A DNA stretch of 64,000 nucleotides from Sphaerochaeta globosa str. Buddy (lineage in GTDB: Bacteria > Spirochaetota > Spirochaetia > Sphaerochaetales > Sphaerochaetaceae). A program made the position numbers and the translations under genes. The notes below the pieces were generated by a model that was not told the DNA's origin, did no database searches, and worked only from the letters and a program-made list of their open reading frames with translations. How positions within the stretch are numbered: the stretch's first letter is position 1; the number at the start of each line of letters is the position of its first letter. Positions 15,272-63,592 of this stretch are shown here, one piece after another. The stretch spans positions 2,238,458-2,302,457 of the forward strand of contig NC_015152.1 in assembly GCF_000190435.1 (NCBI RefSeq), in the 5' to 3' direction.

Positions 15272-16687
15272 ATGAGTTACCATCCGAAACAAACGACAAT
15301 CTTCTGGTATGACCTGGAAACCTTCGGCCTGGACAGCAGGTACGATCGCATCGCCCAATTCGCAGGTCAACGTACCGATCTGAACCTCAATCCCATCGGA
15401 GAACCTATTGTTCTGTACTGCAAACTCAGTGACGATTACCTGCCCGATCCACTCTCGTGCACGATAACCTCCATCACTCCGCAGGAAGTGAATAAGAAAG
15501 GCATCTGTGAAAGTGACTTGATCGATCGAATCAATTCCGAGTTCTCCAAACCCAATACCGTGGTGGCCGGCTTCAATACCATCCGCTTTGACGATGAGTT
15601 CATCCGCAACGCCTTGTATCGCAACTTTCTCGACCCATACAAGCGGGAATGGGATAATTACTGCAGCCGCTGGGACATCATCGACTTGGTTCGTGCCGCC
15701 TATGACTTGAGACCTGAAGGAATTGCCTGGCCTCCCCGCAAGGAGGAGACAGGCAACCCAACGTTCCGCTTGGTCGCCCTTACACAGGCCAACAATATTG
15801 AGCAGGTTGGGGCCCACGATGCACTCGTCGATGTACGGGCTACGATTGCCATCGCCCGCCTGATCAAGGAGAAGCAACCCAAGCTGTATGAGTATTATTT
15901 TGCCTTGCGTGCCAAAACCCAGGTCAAGAAAGTCGTGCAGACACCCTTTGGGGAGCCGGTACTCTATACCGCAGCCTTCTTCAGCAAGAATGAGGGGTGC
16001 TCACGCCTTATCACCCCGATCACCCATATGAAAAGCAATGCCAATGCCATCATCTGCTTTGACTTGAGCAAGGATGTCGCCCCGCTGCTTCAAGCAACCG
16101 AAGAGACCCTGCTAAAGACCGAGGGTGTGTTCACCCTATCGATCAACAAGTGTCCCTTTGTCTCACCGTTGAACGTCCTCACCGACCAATTGGCCATAAA
16201 ATTGGGCATCGACAAGGAGCTTGCCCTCTTCAGGCACCAGCAAATCGTCAACCAAACAAAACTTCTGATGACGGCCCGTAATATCGAGGAAAAGTACGAG
16301 GGAGTGGACGATGTAGACTTTCAGCTCTATGACCGTTTCTTCGGCGATGCCGACCAGAAACGATTCAATCTCATCCGCCAGGCCGAGCCTAAGGACAAGC
16401 TTTCACTGCACCTCGACTTCGAGGATAATCGGGTTGCCCCCCTGCTTTTTCGGCACGTGGCACGCAACTGGAGCGAAGTCCTCACCGACGAACAAAAACG
16501 CAAGTGGAGAAGTTTCTGTGCGAATCGTACCCTTAATCCACCGGGCTCGATCAAGATGAACTGGAATTTCTTCAAACGCAAGATTGAGGAAAAATTGGCA
16601 AGCACGGAAACCTCTGCCGAGGAAAAACGCGTGCTTGCCGATTTGAAAGCCTATGGGGAAGAACTGGAAACGAAAATCTTCGGTTAG
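15272..16687 (+). CDS. sbcB: Exodeoxyribonuclease I
   Basis: 471-aa 3'-to-5' single-strand DNA exonuclease used in recombination and mismatch repair. The DEDD-type exonuclease domain is at the N-terminus: WYDLETFGLD supplies Asp14 and Glu16, GFNTIRFDDEFIRNA the second Asp motif, and GAHDALVDVRAT the third. An SH3-like and helical C-terminal extension follows, as in ExoI. There is no Shine-Dalgarno, and an extended -10 sits 6 nt before the ATG, so the transcript is probably leaderless. The 3' end overlaps kbl by 4 bp on the opposite strand. Confidence 0.95.
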   Translation: MSYHPKQTTIFWYDLETFGLDSRYDRIAQFAGQRTDLNLNPIGEPIVLYCKLSDDYLPDPLSCTITSITPQEVNKKGICESDLIDRINSEFSKPNTVVAGFNTIRFDDEFIRNALYRNFLDPYKREWDNYCSRWDIIDLVRAAYDLRPEGIAWPPRKEETGNPTFRLVALTQANNIEQVGAHDALVDVRATIAIARLIKEKQPKLYEYYFALRAKTQVKKVVQTPFGEPVLYTAAFFSKNEGCSRLITPITHMKSNANAIICFDLSKDVAPLLQATEETLLKTEGVFTLSINKCPFVSPLNVLTDQLAIKLGIDKELALFRHQQIVNQTKLLMTARNIEEKYEGVDDVDFQLYDRFFGDADQKRFNLIRQAEPKDKLSLHLDFEDNRVAPLLFRHVARNWSEVLTDEQKRKWRSFCANRTLNPPGSIKMNWNFFKRKIEEKLASTETSAEEKRVLADLKAYGEELETKIFG

Positions 16688-17868
16688 AGCAACTTCATTT
16701 CCTTAGCCACAGAAACGAAGGCAGAGACTGCCGTTTCGATGTCTTCGGCTGTGTGGACTGCTGATAGCTGAACCCTGATCCTTGCCCTACCCTTGGGAAC
16801 CACCGGATAGCAGAACCCTATGACGTAAATGCCCTTAGCAAGGAGGGCATCCGCCATTGCAACCGCCTTGTTTTCGTCATACACCATCACCGGTACGATG
16901 GCGGTCTCACCTTTGACCAAGTCAAAGCCCGCTTCCTCCATGAGACGGCGAAAGTGTTTGGCATTGCGCATGGTCAAATCCTTAAAGGGATTTCCCTGTT
17001 CCAAAAGGTCCAGGACCTTCAGGGTCCCACCGCAGATGGCGGGAGCGAGCGTATTGGAGAAGAGATACGGCCGGGCACGTTGGCGGTAGAGATCGATAAG
17101 CAGTTGGTTGCCTGAAATGCACCCCCCGCTTGCGCCCCCGCACGCTTTTCCGAAGGTGGTGGTGATCAAATCAACCTGTCCTTCCACACCGCAAAGCTCA
17201 ACCGTTCCACGTCCTGTAGGCCCTAGATACCCAGTCGCATGTGAGTCATCAACCATTACCAAGGCATCAAACTCTTTCGCTAGCGTACAGATTTCCTTAA
17301 GCTTGGCAATATCGCCGTCCATGGAGAATACCCCATCGGTGGCGATGAGACGGCGGCGGCAGTGCTGGCTCTGCTTCAGGCAATCCTTCAGACTTTCCAT
17401 ATCGCTGTGCTTGTACCGCAGCCGTTCTGCCTTGCACAATCTGATGCCGTCAATAATCGAAGCATGGTTCAGTTCATCGCTGATCACTGCATCCGTTTCG
17501 CCGAGCAGAGGTTCGAACAAAGCCCCGTTTGCATCAAAACAGGAGGAAAAAAGAATGGTGTCATCAGTTCTCAGAAAAGAGCTGATGCGCTTTTCCAAGG
17601 TCTTGTGCACCTGCTGTGTACCGCAAATGAAGCGTACCGACGAAAGTCCATACCCCCACGTATCCATAGCATCCTTGGCTGCCTGGATCACGTCTTTGTT
17701 GTTGGAAAGCCCGAGGTAGTTGTTTGCACAGAAGTTCAATACATGCTTGGAGCCTACTTCAATGCTGCGGCTCTGGCTGCTGGTTAGCACCCGTTCTTTT
17801 TTTAGTAAACCCTGCTTCTGTTGCTCGGTAAAGAACGCTTGCAACTCCTGCCGTACAGATTCGTTCAT
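16684..17868 (-). CDS. kbl: 2-amino-3-ketobutyrate CoA ligase (glycine C-acetyltransferase)
   Basis: 394-aa PLP enzyme of the alpha-oxoamine synthase family. It splits 2-amino-3-ketobutyrate with CoA to glycine and acetyl-CoA, the second step of threonine breakdown. The PLP lysine motif TTTFGKACGGASGG, the LNFCANNYLGL start and the VDDSHATGYLGPTGRG segment are typical. Its ATG overlaps the tdh stop (ATGA) with AAGGAGG upstream, so tdh and kbl are a coupled operon. The glycine made would feed the gcv/glyA cluster at 32-37 kb. Confidence 0.96.
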   Translation of the reverse strand: MNESVRQELQAFFTEQQKQGLLKKERVLTSSQSRSIEVGSKHVLNFCANNYLGLSNNKDVIQAAKDAMDTWGYGLSSVRFICGTQQVHKTLEKRISSFLRTDDTILFSSCFDANGALFEPLLGETDAVISDELNHASIIDGIRLCKAERLRYKHSDMESLKDCLKQSQHCRRRLIATDGVFSMDGDIAKLKEICTLAKEFDALVMVDDSHATGYLGPTGRGTVELCGVEGQVDLITTTFGKACGGASGGCISGNQLLIDLYRQRARPYLFSNTLAPAICGGTLKVLDLLEQGNPFKDLTMRNAKHFRRLMEEAGFDLVKGETAIVPVMVYDENKAVAMADALLAKGIYVIGFCYPVVPKGRARIRVQLSAVHTAEDIETAVSAFVSVAKEMKLL

Positions 17869-18815
17869 TCGCTCCTCCTTTGGATGGTTGTCAACATATC
17901 AGAAGTCATGGCAGCAAGGTCAAAGCGGGGTTTCCAATCCCATTCAACTCTTGCCGCATAATCTTCCAGACTGTCAGGCCAAGAATCAGCGATGGCCTGT
18001 TTGACCGGATCTATATCGTAGCTGATGGTGAAATCTGGGATATGGGTTCGGATATAGGCGGCCTGCTCTTCCGGGCAGAAGCTCATTGCTGCAATGTTGA
18101 AGGCATTTCGATGCCGCAGCTTGGCGGGGTTTGCCTCCATGATCTGGATGGCGGCCTGAACGGCATCCGGCATGTAAATCATGTCCAGATACGTGTCCCC
18201 GCGAAGGAAGCAGGTATAATGGTGGCTCTTCACCGCCTCGTAGTAAATCTCAACCGCATAGTCGGTTGTTCCACCTCCCGGAGGTGTCATATTGCTGATG
18301 ACCCCGGGGAAGCGGATACCGCGGGTATCGACATCAAACTTATGATAGTAATAGTCGCAAAGCAATTCACCGGCTACCTTGGTCACCCCGTATATAGAAG
18401 TAGGCCGCTGAATCGTATCCTGCGGTGTGTACTGTTTGGGTGTAGTCGGCCCGAACGCTCCGATGGAGGAAGGAGTGAAAACCGCACAGCCATTTGTCTT
18501 GGCAACCTCGAGAGTGGCGATCAAACCACCCATGTTCAGGTTCCAGGCATTCAAAGGATCCTTTTCCGCCCTGGCTGAAAGAACTGCCGCCAAATGATAG
18601 ATGGTGTCGATATTGTGCTTCTTCACAATCGCATCCACACTCTGTCCATCACGTGCATCGACAAGGTAGAAGGGACCGCCCTCCACCAAAGGCTTGTTTA
18701 CATCATTACGGATATCGGTCAGAACGACATGGTCATCACCGTACCGTTTACGACATTCCAGCGCAATTTCGGAGCCCAATTGGCCCAATGAACCGATGAT
18801 CAGGATGTTCTTCAT
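17865..18815 (-). CDS. tdh: L-threonine 3-dehydrogenase, SDR/epimerase type
   Basis: 316-aa NAD-dependent short-chain dehydrogenase oxidising threonine to 2-amino-3-ketobutyrate. The Rossmann motif GSLGQLGSE is at the start, the catalytic Ser is in SSIGAFGP, and Tyr/Lys are in IYGVTKVAGE. The IRFPGVIS segment is typical of the epimerase-like TDH and distinguishes it from zinc-type Tdh. The start at 18815 is taken because GGAGG is just upstream. Transcription would come from a consensus promoter (TTGACA-N17-TATAAT) covered by two inverted repeats, so tight control is likely, probably by the divergent XRE-cupin protein. Confidence 0.95.
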   Translation of the reverse strand: MKNILIIGSLGQLGSEIALECRKRYGDDHVVLTDIRNDVNKPLVEGGPFYLVDARDGQSVDAIVKKHNIDTIYHLAAVLSARAEKDPLNAWNLNMGGLIATLEVAKTNGCAVFTPSSIGAFGPTTPKQYTPQDTIQRPTSIYGVTKVAGELLCDYYYHKFDVDTRGIRFPGVISNMTPPGGGTTDYAVEIYYEAVKSHHYTCFLRGDTYLDMIYMPDAVQAAIQIMEANPAKLRHRNAFNIAAMSFCPEEQAAYIRTHIPDFTISYDIDPVKQAIADSWPDSLEDYAARVEWDWKPRFDLAAMTSDMLTTIQRRSE

Positions 18816-18839: not shown

Positions 18840-18868
18840 TTGACAAGGTAGTCAACCCGGCTTACAAT
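18840..18868 (+). promoter_or_regulatory. Promoter of the XRE-cupin regulator
   Basis: TTGACA at 18840-18845, 17-bp spacer, TACAAT at 18863-18868. The predicted start near 18875 lies inside the 16-bp palindrome. The leader to the ATG at 18934 is about 60 nt and carries an AGGAG. Confidence 0.65.
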
Positions 18869-18881
18869 GAACATGTTCATT
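18866..18881. promoter_or_regulatory. Operator-like palindrome AATGAACATGTTCATT
   Basis: A perfect 16-bp palindrome covering the predicted start sites of both divergent promoters. It also overlaps the -10 boxes of both. It is a strong candidate binding site for the XRE-cupin regulator. Confidence 0.65.
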
Positions 18882-18907
18882 ATAGTGAACTCTTTTCACT
18901 ATGTCAA
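18879..18907 (-). promoter_or_regulatory. Consensus promoter of tdh-kbl
   Basis: On the minus strand, TTGACA (18907-18902), a 17-bp spacer and TATAAT (18884-18879), perfect in both boxes. A start near 18872 gives a leader of about 57 nt with GGAGG before tdh. Confidence 0.8.
18882..18902. promoter_or_regulatory. Second operator-like inverted repeat
   Basis: ATAGTGAA, 5-bp spacer, TTCACTAT. It fills the gap between the -35 and -10 boxes of the tdh promoter. Its half-site (TGAA) resembles that of the neighbouring palindrome, so one protein could bind both. Confidence 0.6.
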
Positions 18908-18933
18908 ACTTTTTACCCAGCAGGAGCAGCAAG

Positions 18934-19506
18934 ATGGAAAACCCTCCGATGATCGGCAAAAATATCCAAAGGATTCGGAACAGCCGTAAACTTACCCTTA
19001 ATGTTCTCTCCGAGCGTTCAGGTGTCTCCAAAGCCATGCTCAGCCAAATTGAGTCCGACAAGGTAAATCCTACCGTAGCAACCGTCTGGAAGATAGCCCG
19101 CGGCCTGAATGTTGAGCTCAATGATTTGCTCGATACCGACGACCAACCCAAACGCGTTTTCAGTCTCAATCCTGCCGGTGATGATGCTCCCAAAATGGAG
19201 ACCCATGACAACGGAGTATCCATTCGCATACTCAGTCCCCTGAACATGGTTGAGGAACTGGAGATGTATCTGCTCACCTTCGAAGGACACAGCAAGCTCG
19301 CCAGCGAACCCCACTACCCCGGAACCCAAGAATTCCTGACGGTCGTCAAGGGAGCAGTGAAAGTGCAGGTGGGCGAGAATACCGCTGAGATCAAGAAGGG
19401 TGACTTTTTGGTCTACCATTGCGATATCGACCACTCCATCACCAATGAAAGCAGCCAACCTGCAACCGTACATATGGTAGTACGCTTCACCCCCGACAAG
19501 CGATAA
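18934..19506 (+). CDS. XRE-family regulator with cupin domain
   Basis: 190-aa regulator. An XRE helix-turn-helix occupies about residues 5-65 (IGKNIQRIR, then LSERSGVSKAMLSQIESDK). A cupin domain follows at about 95-185 (EPHYPGTQEFLTVVKG, then KKGDFLVYHCDIDHSITNE), a small-molecule sensor. Relatives control amino acid or sugar metabolism. The ATG at 18934 is preferred to 18901 because AGGAG (18922-18926) is 7 nt upstream and because the earlier ATG would lie in the tdh -35 region. It faces tdh-kbl across interlocked promoters, so it is likely their regulator and its own. The ligand may be threonine, glycine or a product, but that is inference. Confidence 0.9.
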   Translation: MENPPMIGKNIQRIRNSRKLTLNVLSERSGVSKAMLSQIESDKVNPTVATVWKIARGLNVELNDLLDTDDQPKRVFSLNPAGDDAPKMETHDNGVSIRILSPLNMVEELEMYLLTFEGHSKLASEPHYPGTQEFLTVVKGAVKVQVGENTAEIKKGDFLVYHCDIDHSITNESSQPATVHMVVRFTPDKR

Positions 19507-19572: not shown

Positions 19573-20934
19573 ATGGCGAAAAAAGGCATTATGGTCTCCT
19601 ATGGGATGGGCAAGTTCATTGCCGAGTTTCTTACCGGCGCTTTCGGGTCCATCGTATTCATGTTCTATGAGACCGAGGTAGGGTTGGCGGGTGGATATGC
19701 CGCTTTGGCGACTATCATCTATTCAGTGTGGAATGCGGTCAACGATCCGATCATCGGATACGTCACCAACAAGACAGCGCTCTTTTCCAAAAAATTCGGC
19801 AGACGATTTGTTTGGATTATCGGCGGCTTGATACTGTGCAGTCTTGCCTTCATATCAATCTTTTCGGTGCCCACACTCTGGGATGCAAAGAAACAACCGC
19901 TTCCCGTCTTTTTGTGGATGGTTCTTTCCATCTGCCTGTATGACGGGTTGTATTCCCTTTGGGAAGTAAATTATCAAAGTATCTACCCGGACAAATTCCG
20001 TACCGATTCAGAGCGGACCACTACCGCCGCCATTGGAACGGGTATCGGAGTGTTGGGCATTGCCAGCGGCTTCATCATTCCCCCGCTTTTCTTCTCCTAT
20101 GGAGTGCGCGCGAGTTACCAAGTCTGCGCCATTGTTATAGCAGCCATCAGCATCGTCAGTACCCTGGGGCTGAGCTTTGGAGTTTTTGAGACCAAGCAAA
20201 TGATAACGAGGTTCTCCCAGCAGCATCAAAAGGACGTTCCCCCGTTCTTCAGCCAAATGCGCAAAGCCTTGAAAAGCCGCAACCTGCTTGCATTCGTTTT
20301 GCTGCTCTTCTTCTACCAGAGTGGATGCATGCTTATGACGGCCAGCATCAACTATGTGGTCAAGTATGTGCTAGGGGCCAAGAGCAGCCAAGCTACCCCG
20401 ATTTTCGCCGGCATGCTGGTCGGCACCTTGCTTTCCATCCTGCTTTGGACCCGCGTCGCTAAGAAAGTTAAAAACAACCAACGCATGCTTATTCTTTCCA
20501 GCTTCGCCCTTGCGCTCTTTGCCCTGCCTCTCACCTTCCTTCCCAATGCAGGTACGTATATTTTGGGAATGACGCTTTGGGGCCTCGGGTTTGGAGGCTT
20601 CTGGACCTTCATGAGTCCAGCCATGGCAGATGTAATTGATAGCCTGGTGGTAGACCAGAAGCGTCGTGATGACGGGGTAGTACTCGGTATCAGGGCATTT
20701 TTCATGCGATTCAGTTATGCAAGTCAGGCCATCGTTTTCTTTGTGGTGCACCAAGCTACCGGCTTCGATGACCAGAACATTACCGAGGCGGCACGTTGGG
20801 GAATACGATTGCACATGGGTCTTATTCCTGCACTCTTCTTTCTTATTGGTGGTCTACTCTTTTTGAAGATGAATCGACTGGATGCCAATCAAATTCAGAA
20901 AAATCGCAAGGCACTCTCCTTATTGGATATCTAG
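19573..20934 (+). CDS. MFS sugar:cation symporter (GPH family)
   Basis: 453-aa, 12-helix membrane transporter of the glycoside-pentoside-hexuronide:cation symporter group. An early Asn-Asp motif (WNAVNDPIIGY) is in the place of the family's DPxxG loop, and the FGRRFVWIIGG segment is the family's cytoplasmic loop between helices 2 and 3. Members import sugars with Na+ or H+; the substrate cannot be read here. The ATG at 19573 is chosen; a purine-rich AGAGGAAGGG lies upstream. It follows the XRE-cupin gene by 66 nt on the same strand and may share its transcript. Confidence 0.85.
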   Translation: MAKKGIMVSYGMGKFIAEFLTGAFGSIVFMFYETEVGLAGGYAALATIIYSVWNAVNDPIIGYVTNKTALFSKKFGRRFVWIIGGLILCSLAFISIFSVPTLWDAKKQPLPVFLWMVLSICLYDGLYSLWEVNYQSIYPDKFRTDSERTTTAAIGTGIGVLGIASGFIIPPLFFSYGVRASYQVCAIVIAAISIVSTLGLSFGVFETKQMITRFSQQHQKDVPPFFSQMRKALKSRNLLAFVLLLFFYQSGCMLMTASINYVVKYVLGAKSSQATPIFAGMLVGTLLSILLWTRVAKKVKNNQRMLILSSFALALFALPLTFLPNAGTYILGMTLWGLGFGGFWTFMSPAMADVIDSLVVDQKRRDDGVVLGIRAFFMRFSYASQAIVFFVVHQATGFDDQNITEAARWGIRLHMGLIPALFFLIGGLLFLKMNRLDANQIQKNRKALSLLDI

Positions 20935-38594: not shown

Positions 38595-38623
38595 TTGACA
38601 CGCTCAAGGCTAGTGCCTATAAT
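38595..38623 (+). promoter_or_regulatory. Consensus promoter of infA
   Basis: TTGACA (38595-38600), 17-bp spacer, TATAAT (38618-38623), perfect in both boxes. The start near 38630 gives a 27-nt leader with TGGAGG before the GTG. Confidence 0.85.
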
Positions 38624-62821: not shown

Positions 62822-63592
62822 TCATCCAAAGTCTGGTGGTATAGTGGAGGGTTTGGATAGTTGCATCATCGAAGGCAAGAGAGAGCGCAGGGACTTTGCA
62901 TCATCAGAGGCAGCCTCCAAGGAAACGATAAGTCGGTCGCAAACCGAGATTATGTCCTCCGAGCAAGAAGGTGTGTTGAGTATCATTTCCAATGCAGGTT
63001 CTGCATCCTCATCCAACTGGTTCAGCAATCGCAAAATGGACATCAGCGAGTAACCGGCAAGCCGAAGGGTGCGGATGATGCACAACCGCCTCAAATCATC
63101 ACCATCATAGATACGGTAGCCATTCTGCTTTCGCTTGGTATGGATCAGACCATTCAACTCCCAGTTTCTTAGGGTGTCCAAGGTAACGCCGATCTGCGTT
63201 GCCGCTTGTTTTCTGGTAAGGGTGAAGTCTCGCTCATGATGCTTGCTGTTGAGAATCGCCTGTACATCGCTGATGGCGGACCTGGCACGTACCAGTTCCT
63301 CCTCGATACTGGATAGGTACCTATCCACGGCCTTCATGGCCCCTTGAAAATCCAATCCGGCACAGAGCCGTATGATACACAGTGCCTGATCTCTCAGCCC
63401 ATGGTGCAAGACTTCGCTACGAAGTGCCAATCGCGCGAACCGAATCTGCAATACCTGCAACTCAGTGAATACCCGATACCCGTTCTCTTTTCTGTTGGCT
63501 TGGGTGATGAATTGTAATTTCTCATAGAGGCGTACCGTATTGGGATGCACTCCTGTCAAAACAGCCAACTCTTGTGTCCTGTAGGTTTGCAT
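62822..63592 (-). CDS. Regulator with two MerR-type DNA-binding domains
   Basis: 256-aa protein with two MerR HTH regions. The first (about 3-70) has QTYRTQELAVLTGVHPNTVRLYEK. The second (about 125-190) has LTRKQAATQIGVTLDTLRNWELNGL and a KQNGYRIYDGDDLRRL segment. MerR proteins normally have one HTH and form dimers; here one chain may carry both. Sensor cysteines typical of metal MerRs are missing, so a drug-like ligand is more likely. Start at 63592 with GGAGG 6 nt upstream. It is followed by the MFS exporter on the same strand. Confidence 0.85.
   Translation of the reverse strand: MQTYRTQELAVLTGVHPNTVRLYEKLQFITQANRKENGYRVFTELQVLQIRFARLALRSEVLHHGLRDQALCIIRLCAGLDFQGAMKAVDRYLSSIEEELVRARSAISDVQAILNSKHHERDFTLTRKQAATQIGVTLDTLRNWELNGLIHTKRKQNGYRIYDGDDLRRLCIIRTLRLAGYSLMSILRLLNQLDEDAEPALEMILNTPSCSEDIISVCDRLIVSLEAASDDAKSLRSLLPSMMQLSKPSTIPPDFG

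Follow-up and report, generated by a model that had tools for sequence, protein, structure and literature searches.

The closest described systems are those of XRE-cupin transcription factors. In the available part of a study of these proteins, PuuR is described as leaving its site upon sensing putrescine, and the P. aeruginosa factors that were studied inhibit neighbouring genes, with motifs, for those that have one, that are palindromic (PMC7901475). DbuR of Pseudomonas putida, as presented in the accessible portion of its report, is an XRE-cupin inhibitor divergent from an amino-acid catabolic operon; its 44-bp footprint takes in a 20-bp palindrome together with the predicted -10 element, and the substrate effect, or induction, seemed at least partly independent of DbuR (PMC12724383). 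A regulator gene near kbl-tdh, in the setting of glycine, threonine and serine degradation, is known from Burkholderia xenovorans (MgxR, Bxe_B3018), although XRE, HTH and cupin are not mentioned in the main text of that paper, as far as it was available (PMC4349456). Among the matches listed, which cover the literature in part, none describes control of tdh, kbl or threonine aldolase by an XRE-cupin protein, and none gives an account of the induction of threonine catabolism in spirochaetes or Lentisphaeria.

Here we describe a tdh-kbl locus in a window of 64,000 nucleotides (the whole stretch of DNA analysed) from a 3.32-Mb, single-contig genome. We consider it probable (about 0.78) that the XRE-cupin protein encoded opposite tdh is a ligand-responsive repressor of tdh-kbl, which acts through two sites, O1 and O2, within the tdh promoter, with threonine or glycine lifting the repression.

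Results

Features of the locus, with window positions; O0, O1 and O2 are predicted sites
Feature	Position	Strand	Remarks
kbl, glycine C-acetyltransferase (2-amino-3-ketobutyrate CoA ligase)	16684..17868	-	NCBIfam NF005394 and TIGR01822, above cut-off
tdh, predicted SDR-type L-threonine 3-dehydrogenase	17865..18815	-	316 aa, ATG at 18815; PDB 7cgv, 7ol1, 2yy7; Pfam Epimerase
xre promoter -35, TTGACA	18840..18845	+	sequence and conservation profile
xre promoter -10, TACAAT	18863..18868	+	sequence and conservation profile
O0, half-site TACAATGAAC	18863..18872	+	weak; overlaps the xre -10 box; GAAC part poorly conserved
Palindrome of the earlier note, AATGAACATGTTCATT	18866..18881		composed of the right O0 half and the left O1 half
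O1, principal candidate operator, GTTCATTATAGTGAAC	18875..18890		16-bp palindrome with the tdh -10 box at its centre
tdh promoter -10, TATAAT	18879..18884	-	inside the best operator in 33/42 loci
Inverted repeat of the earlier note, ATAGTGAA-N5-TTCACTAT	18882..18902		composed of the right O1 half and the left O2 half
O2, weaker second candidate operator, TTTCACTATGTCAAAC	18894..18909		19 bp from O1; holds the tdh -35 box
tdh promoter -35, TTGACA	18902..18907	-	sequence and conservation profile
xre, XRE-cupin regulator gene	18934..19506	+	190 aa, ATG at 18934; AGGAG at 18922-18926 upstream
GPH/MFS_2-family symporter gene	19573..20934	+	3' of xre; Pfam MFS_2

By its match to solved enzymes (7ol1, E 1.6e-118; 2yy7, E 4.1e-100; 3wmw, E 1.2e-91) the tdh product is, in predicted activity, an L-threonine 3-dehydrogenase of the SDR type. 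The symporter gene, possibly co-transcribed with xre, also lies close 3' of xre in relatives (for example L003, L005-L011 and L014), and it remains beside xre in loci from which tdh is missing or has moved elsewhere (L022, L023, L025). In two loci (L009, L062) the gene adjoining tdh matches the kbl of the window at just 44-45%, against 75-81% in L006-L008 and L061, and kbl there seems to have been replaced by a diverged paralogue.

The regulator is, by its domain layout, a member of the XRE-cupin transcription factors, with an N-terminal HTH of the Cro/CI type (Pfam HTH_3, residues 11-65, 52.5 bits against a cut-off of 23) and a single C-terminal cupin (Pfam Cupin_2, residues 124-182, 41.5 bits against 27.2). 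The gene adjoins its candidate metabolic target and a palindromic site lies at the promoter, as expected for the class. A structure model (mean pLDDT 84, pTM 0.53) shows HTH helices followed by cupin strands and has the V. cholerae protein 1y9q as its best Foldseek match, with a poor superposition over the whole chain (TM 0.46, rmsd 16.0 A). Among 82 distinct homologues, S32, K33, A34, L36, S37, Q38 and E40 of the recognition-helix region, together with V44-N45-P46-T47, are conserved at 0.99-1.00, which fits a predicted operator common to two phyla. In the cupin, E110, S124, H127, E133, D164 and H167 are invariant among the same homologues; seven paralogues share H127 (6/7), E133 (7/7) and H167 (7/7), and E110 (0/7), S124 (2/7) and D164 (2/7) rarely or never, conservation being the one basis on which we read the pocket.

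An earlier note on this DNA had described two divergent promoters that cross each other, and both are there: TTGACA-N17-TATAAT on the minus strand (18907-18879) agrees with the consensus at 12/12 positions and TTGACA-N17-TACAAT on the plus strand (18840-18868) at 11/12. Matches of 11 or 12/12 to the promoter pattern occur four times on the two strands of the 64-kb window, and two of the four are these. A further 12/12 match, TTGACA-N17-TATAAT at 38595-38623, stands upstream of an apparent infA (IF-1) gene, as judged by eye. The overlap is kept in relatives, since the best plus promoter scores at least 10/12 in 39 of 42 tdh-linked intergenic sequences, the best minus promoter in 36, and both do so in 34. 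Taking transcription to begin 7 bases past each -10 box, we infer starts at about 18875 (plus) and 18872 (minus), so that core DNA would be common to the two promoters, which could not be occupied simultaneously.

To describe the conservation of the intergenic region we used 50 loci fetched from genome contigs and a search of 139 genomes of the window's family; of the upstream sequences from the first 81 loci, 58 are distinct, and 42 of these have tdh upstream of xre. The best conserved intergenic element is a 16-bp palindrome, GTTCAnTATAnTGAAC, which is absent from the earlier note and which we call O1. Compared with the 16-mer GTTCANTATANTGAAC, the best site has no mismatch in 20 of the 42 sequences, one in 18, two in 2 and three in 2 (38/42 within one mismatch; these counts include close relatives), whereas dinucleotide shuffles average 5.7 mismatches. 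Among 19 representatives whose regulators are less than 80% identical, 17 have the 16-mer within one mismatch, and none has a control motif with reversed halves (0/19; 4-7 mismatches); this set was drawn from 37 of the 42 loci, L007, L049, L050, L065 and L068 lying outside the protein set. The predicted pairing of regulator and operator has strong comparative support.

The second site, O2, shares its right half with the tdh -35 box, and its 3-5 strict mismatches in most loci are partly forced by that box. In a column profile of 37 of the 42 loci (L030, L031, L032, L034 and L047 left out), the O2 columns are conserved at +20 to +34 from O1, and they were unused in the anchoring, while the O1 columns were anchored on the motif itself. 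In the same profile the GAAC part of O0 (columns 18869-18871) reaches only 0.21-0.25 bit. The called tdh -10 box falls outside the best operator in 9 of the 42 loci. The called xre -10 box is within the best operator in eight loci (L030, L033, L035, L038, L039, L047, L050 and L052), and in all of these save L030 and L047 the next best site is 21-22 bp off; the six have a mirrored layout, with the xre -10 embedded in the best operator, and no kbl match was found adjoining tdh in them.

The two repeats of the earlier note are both present in the window and fared differently among the relatives. AATGAACATGTTCATT is indeed a perfect 16-bp palindrome, one of two places with such a palindrome on either strand of the 64-kb window (the other being at 63311-63326), but the note had proposed conservation beside the same gene pair as its own test, and there the palindrome fails: it is exact in 3 of the 42 sequences, has one mismatch in 2, two in 1 and at least three in 36 (4-8 in 33), that is, 5/42 within one mismatch, and 1/19 in the set below 80% identity. 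On this comparison it is not an independent operator but a composite of two halves, the right one of the putative O0 and the left one of O1. The second repeat, present with at most two mismatches in 26/42, is conserved because it is made of the right half of O1 and the left half of O2, and it joins halves of two sites rather than being one. A true perfect palindrome can therefore mislead when it is built from halves of two adjoining sites.

The gene and the predicted site keep company across the family. Among the 139 genomes, tdh (E <= 1e-50) was found in 40, an xre orthologue (E <= 1e-70) in 42 and both in 39, counts that track the phylogeny and cannot be treated as independent. The single genome with tdh and no xre (G103) has a contig that ends 52 bases upstream of tdh. 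In the three with xre and no tdh found (G025, G079 and G080; completeness 86, 86 and 98%), no operator was present in the xre upstreams scanned, and the whole of G080 gave 1 site within one mismatch against 3 for the control. The exact 16-mer occurs in 14 of the 139 genomes, in one copy each and always beside an xre orthologue, the reversed control in 1/139; in the window's own genome it is unique. Upstream of seven paralogous XRE-cupin genes (seven family genomes, 24-34% identity) the best sites have 3-6 strict mismatches, and no clear operator was found upstream of threonine-aldolase homologues in five Sphaerochaetaceae genomes. Two of the paralogues (L149 and L150, 33-34% identity) have upstream GTGCAATATATTGCAT and GTGCAATATGTTGCAT, which are alike in layout and differ in their half-sites, and which are perhaps the operator of a sister regulator.

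In four genomes tdh-kbl lies apart from xre, on other contigs (G078, G081, G028) or about 6 kb away (G023). All four tdh upstreams keep a pair of sites spaced 19-21 bp, with summed mismatches to the relaxed motif GTTYANTATANTRAAC of 2, 4, 3 and 4 (G078, G081, G028 and G023), each matched by 0/2000 shuffles. Their xre upstreams (L020, L021, L025 and L164, the first three on the contigs where xre of G081, G078 and G028 was read) have no site pair; the pair scores there are 10-13, which shuffled sequences attained in 391, 183 and 307 cases out of 500 and in 1841 out of 2000. Since the pair stays at tdh and is missing at the relocated xre, the operator belongs to tdh, and where tdh-kbl has moved the regulator, if cognate, would act in trans. 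Genome-wide counts with the relaxed pattern are uninformative in G078 and G081, where hits (11 and 13) were fewer than in the controls (21 and 19), so that we used the pair arrangement at tdh; the single best sites at tdh in these two genomes are less telling, being reached by 5 and 36 of 2000 shuffles. Retention of xre with no upstream operator is seen in L019/L103 (G079), L020/L076 (G081), L021/L080 (G078), L102 (G025) and L104 (G080), and in L019-L021 xre sits close behind the exonuclease-like gene whose window counterpart is next to kbl.

A scan of the window's own genome with the strict motif gave 1 exact site and 15 at two mismatches, against 9 for the reversed control. Fourteen of the 15 were fetched; 10 are inside called ORFs and 4 are intergenic, upstream of asd, of rnpA, of a recombinase-like ORF and, in one case, without a nearby ORF start. 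The first of these (G000:C1:2959457-2959472, outside the window) is about 154 bp upstream of asd, the gene of aspartate-semialdehyde dehydrogenase (344.4 bits with TIGR00978, whose cut-off is 301.2), which feeds the synthesis of threonine, lysine and methionine. We found asd in 23 of 26 genomes of the genus, with 21 distinct upstreams, one of them too short, and in the 20 usable ones the best strict site has one mismatch in 9, two in 6, three in 3, four in 1 and six in 1; scores of 1-2 mismatches were reached by 0-3 of 300 shuffles and of 3 mismatches by 3-7. The site keeps a constant place beside a conserved TGTTAATATAATAACA block. Over 19 anchored rows its mean information is 1.66 bits per column, a value raised by the anchoring, compared with 0.37 in the left flank and 1.13 in the right. 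In ten genomes of the genus there are 21 sites within one mismatch against 7 for the reversed control, 9 of them at tdh, 6 at asd and 6 elsewhere; of the last, 5 were fetched and 4 of those are inside ORFs. From these patterns the candidate regulator probably also binds upstream of asd in the window's genus. The site overlaps no obvious promoter and sits upstream of any obvious asd promoter, and activation there would be a guess. The neighbouring block, very conserved and with a repeated TGTTA (TGTTAATATAATAACA...TGTTAAAA...TTTGTTA; L096, L165-L187), may be the site of another factor.

The same regulator family is found beside other enzymes in Lentisphaeria. In L040-L042 the gene facing the regulator encodes an L-threonine 3-dehydrogenase of the zinc (MDR) type, with an NCBIfam score over the cut-off, and in L041 kbl comes next. 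In the family of this Lentisphaeria genome the regulator (E <= 1e-30) is present in 33 of 78 genomes, and 30 loci were fetched. Zinc tdh faces the regulator in 15 of them, 13 with kbl also within the fetched stretch; a NAAT-family transporter does so in 4 (L133-L136, by match to L045, which itself scores above the TIGR00427 cut-off); and a threonine-aldolase homologue in 4 (L142, L143, L145 and L146). All four of the last belong to Pfam Beta_elim_lyase, and L145, the one tested, has as its best PDB match the L-threonine aldolase 5vye (E 6.7e-127), while NCBIfam returned no model for the homologues at 1e-20. The relaxed motif is within one mismatch at 15/15 zinc-tdh, 4/4 NAAT and 4/4 aldolase loci, a level reached by 0-2 of 400 shuffles, and the sites stand at several other distances from the genes. 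A clear site is lacking in the remaining 7 of the 30; L131 and L141 are weak, with 3 mismatches, a score that 4 and 16 of 400 shuffles attained. In two Lentisphaeria loci (L132, L137) a PutP-like sodium symporter gene precedes the regulator gene in the same orientation, and no operator was found at these symporter genes. A transporter of the NAAT/MarC family stands opposite the regulator, with operator motifs, in L044-L046, L048, L051 and L133-L136. The NAAT family includes transporters of small neutral amino acids, and the cargo in Lentisphaeria is possibly threonine or glycine.

Discussion

The earlier note had proposed a switch for threonine catabolism with the XRE-cupin protein as its likely regulator, and adjacency, co-occurrence and the conservation of the operator all favour that proposal. 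As we picture it, one dimer of the protein would sit on O1, where the tdh -10 box supplies the central TATA, and another would occupy O2, over the -35 box and nearly two helical turns away. With both sites occupied, RNA polymerase would be excluded from the tdh promoter, and, the predicted xre start being the first base of O1, occupation of O1 would also block xre and so give autorepression. Threonine (or glycine) in the cupin pocket would make the dimers leave, and the induced tdh-kbl would convert threonine to glycine and acetyl-CoA. In the window's genus, one signal would through the asd site adjust the making of threonine as well as its breakdown.

Other explanations of the same patterns have to be weighed against repression by the XRE-cupin protein at O1 and O2. 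That the protein activates tdh-kbl, or acts both ways there, is unlikely: the sign of regulation is not readable from sequence and a site off any obvious promoter at asd might suit activation there, but the sites at tdh overlie both the -10 and the -35 box of a promoter with a 12/12 consensus match, which should need no activator, and both the P. aeruginosa XRE-cupin factors (PMC7901475) and DbuR (PMC12724383), as far as the available text of these reports goes, inhibit. Very unlikely, in our estimate, is binding of the conserved palindrome by some other factor, with the adjoining XRE-cupin gene incidental. The three genomes that have a regulator without an operator would suit such a factor, but motif and regulator occur together in two phyla and beside three different threonine enzymes, every one of the 14 family genomes with the exact motif has the regulator, and the half-site is present in the puu region of E. 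coli.

The two remaining explanations concern the DNA itself. It is highly improbable that AATGAACATGTTCATT, over both -10 boxes, is the operator and ATAGTGAA...TTCACTAT a second site: in the window both repeats are present without mismatch and overlie the promoters, and the second persists in many relatives, but the 16-mer far outlasts the first among diverged regulators, and complete 16-mers are found without either repeat (for example in L035, L038 and L052) and also at asd. We give hardly any weight to the view that there is no regulator-specific operator and that the conserved block is just two strong overlapping promoters. The promoter hexamers do explain part of the conservation, but GTTC and GAAC, on either side, are no part of a promoter and the 16-mer nevertheless persists; moreover, the Lentisphaeria sites stand at different spacings and the asd site is away from tdh.

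The earlier note had left the effector of the switch unnamed, and the list can be narrowed, with threonine put first and glycine second. Threonine and glycine are the metabolites common to the SDR dehydrogenase, the zinc MDR dehydrogenase and the PLP aldolase. The aldolase route bypasses 2-amino-3-ketobutyrate, and since the same regulator family and motif are found there, threonine and glycine are left as the candidates; the site at asd, a gene of threonine biosynthesis, would favour threonine over glycine as the signal.

A wider reading, to which we give slightly less than even odds, is that a threonine-sensing regulator family spans spirochaetes and Lentisphaeria, with the operator and the sensor kept and the enzyme swapped among the SDR dehydrogenase, the zinc MDR dehydrogenase and the PLP aldolase, which are non-homologous, and a NAAT-family transporter. 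Control in Sphaerochaeta would on this reading run two ways: without threonine the bound protein would shut tdh-kbl and support asd, and with threonine it would leave both. E110, invariant in the orthologues and absent from the seven paralogues, would help to read the ligand along with the triad H127/E133/H167.

For threonine catabolism the analysis yields a candidate regulator with a precisely defined operator, and it reduces the possible effectors to a few. The signal could be named by elimination because unrelated enzymes stand under one putative operator and a second site lies at a biosynthetic gene, and the same method is usable for other orphan XRE-cupin regulators.

Against the known systems, the best reading is that the regulator works like PuuR and DbuR, by repression that a ligand relieves; as the substrate effect in the DbuR system seemed independent of the regulator, release by ligand is not to be assumed for the protein described here. 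DbuR also differs in its palindrome and in its pathway, that of D-branched-chain amino acids. PauR, PsdR, ErfA and other P. aeruginosa XRE-cupin factors have few targets and in some cases autoregulation, according to the part of the study available (PMC7901475), and the targets of PauR, PsdR and ErfA differ from that of the window regulator. MgxR, as described in the main text of its report, responds to methylglyoxal (PMC4349456). PuuR of E. coli has the same layout of HTH_3 and cupin and is the nearest NCBIfam model, yet the window regulator scores 54.7 bits with the PuuR equivalog NF007408, below the cut-off of 211, and by this score it is not PuuR itself; PuuR controls putrescine catabolism, whereas the candidate target here is the threonine pathway. 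In the puuA-puuD region of E. coli, AAAATATAATGACCA and AAAAAATATTGAACA are found between the genes and AAAATATAATGAACA just past the puuD start codon, with two further half-site matches, at one mismatch, elsewhere in the 11.5-kb puu region. These half-sites, TATAnTGAAC, agree with what we take to be the PuuR box. The boxes have at least three mismatches to the full palindrome of the window, but the half-site TATAnTGAAC is common to O1 (TATAGTGAAC) and to the E. coli puu region (TATAATGAAC).
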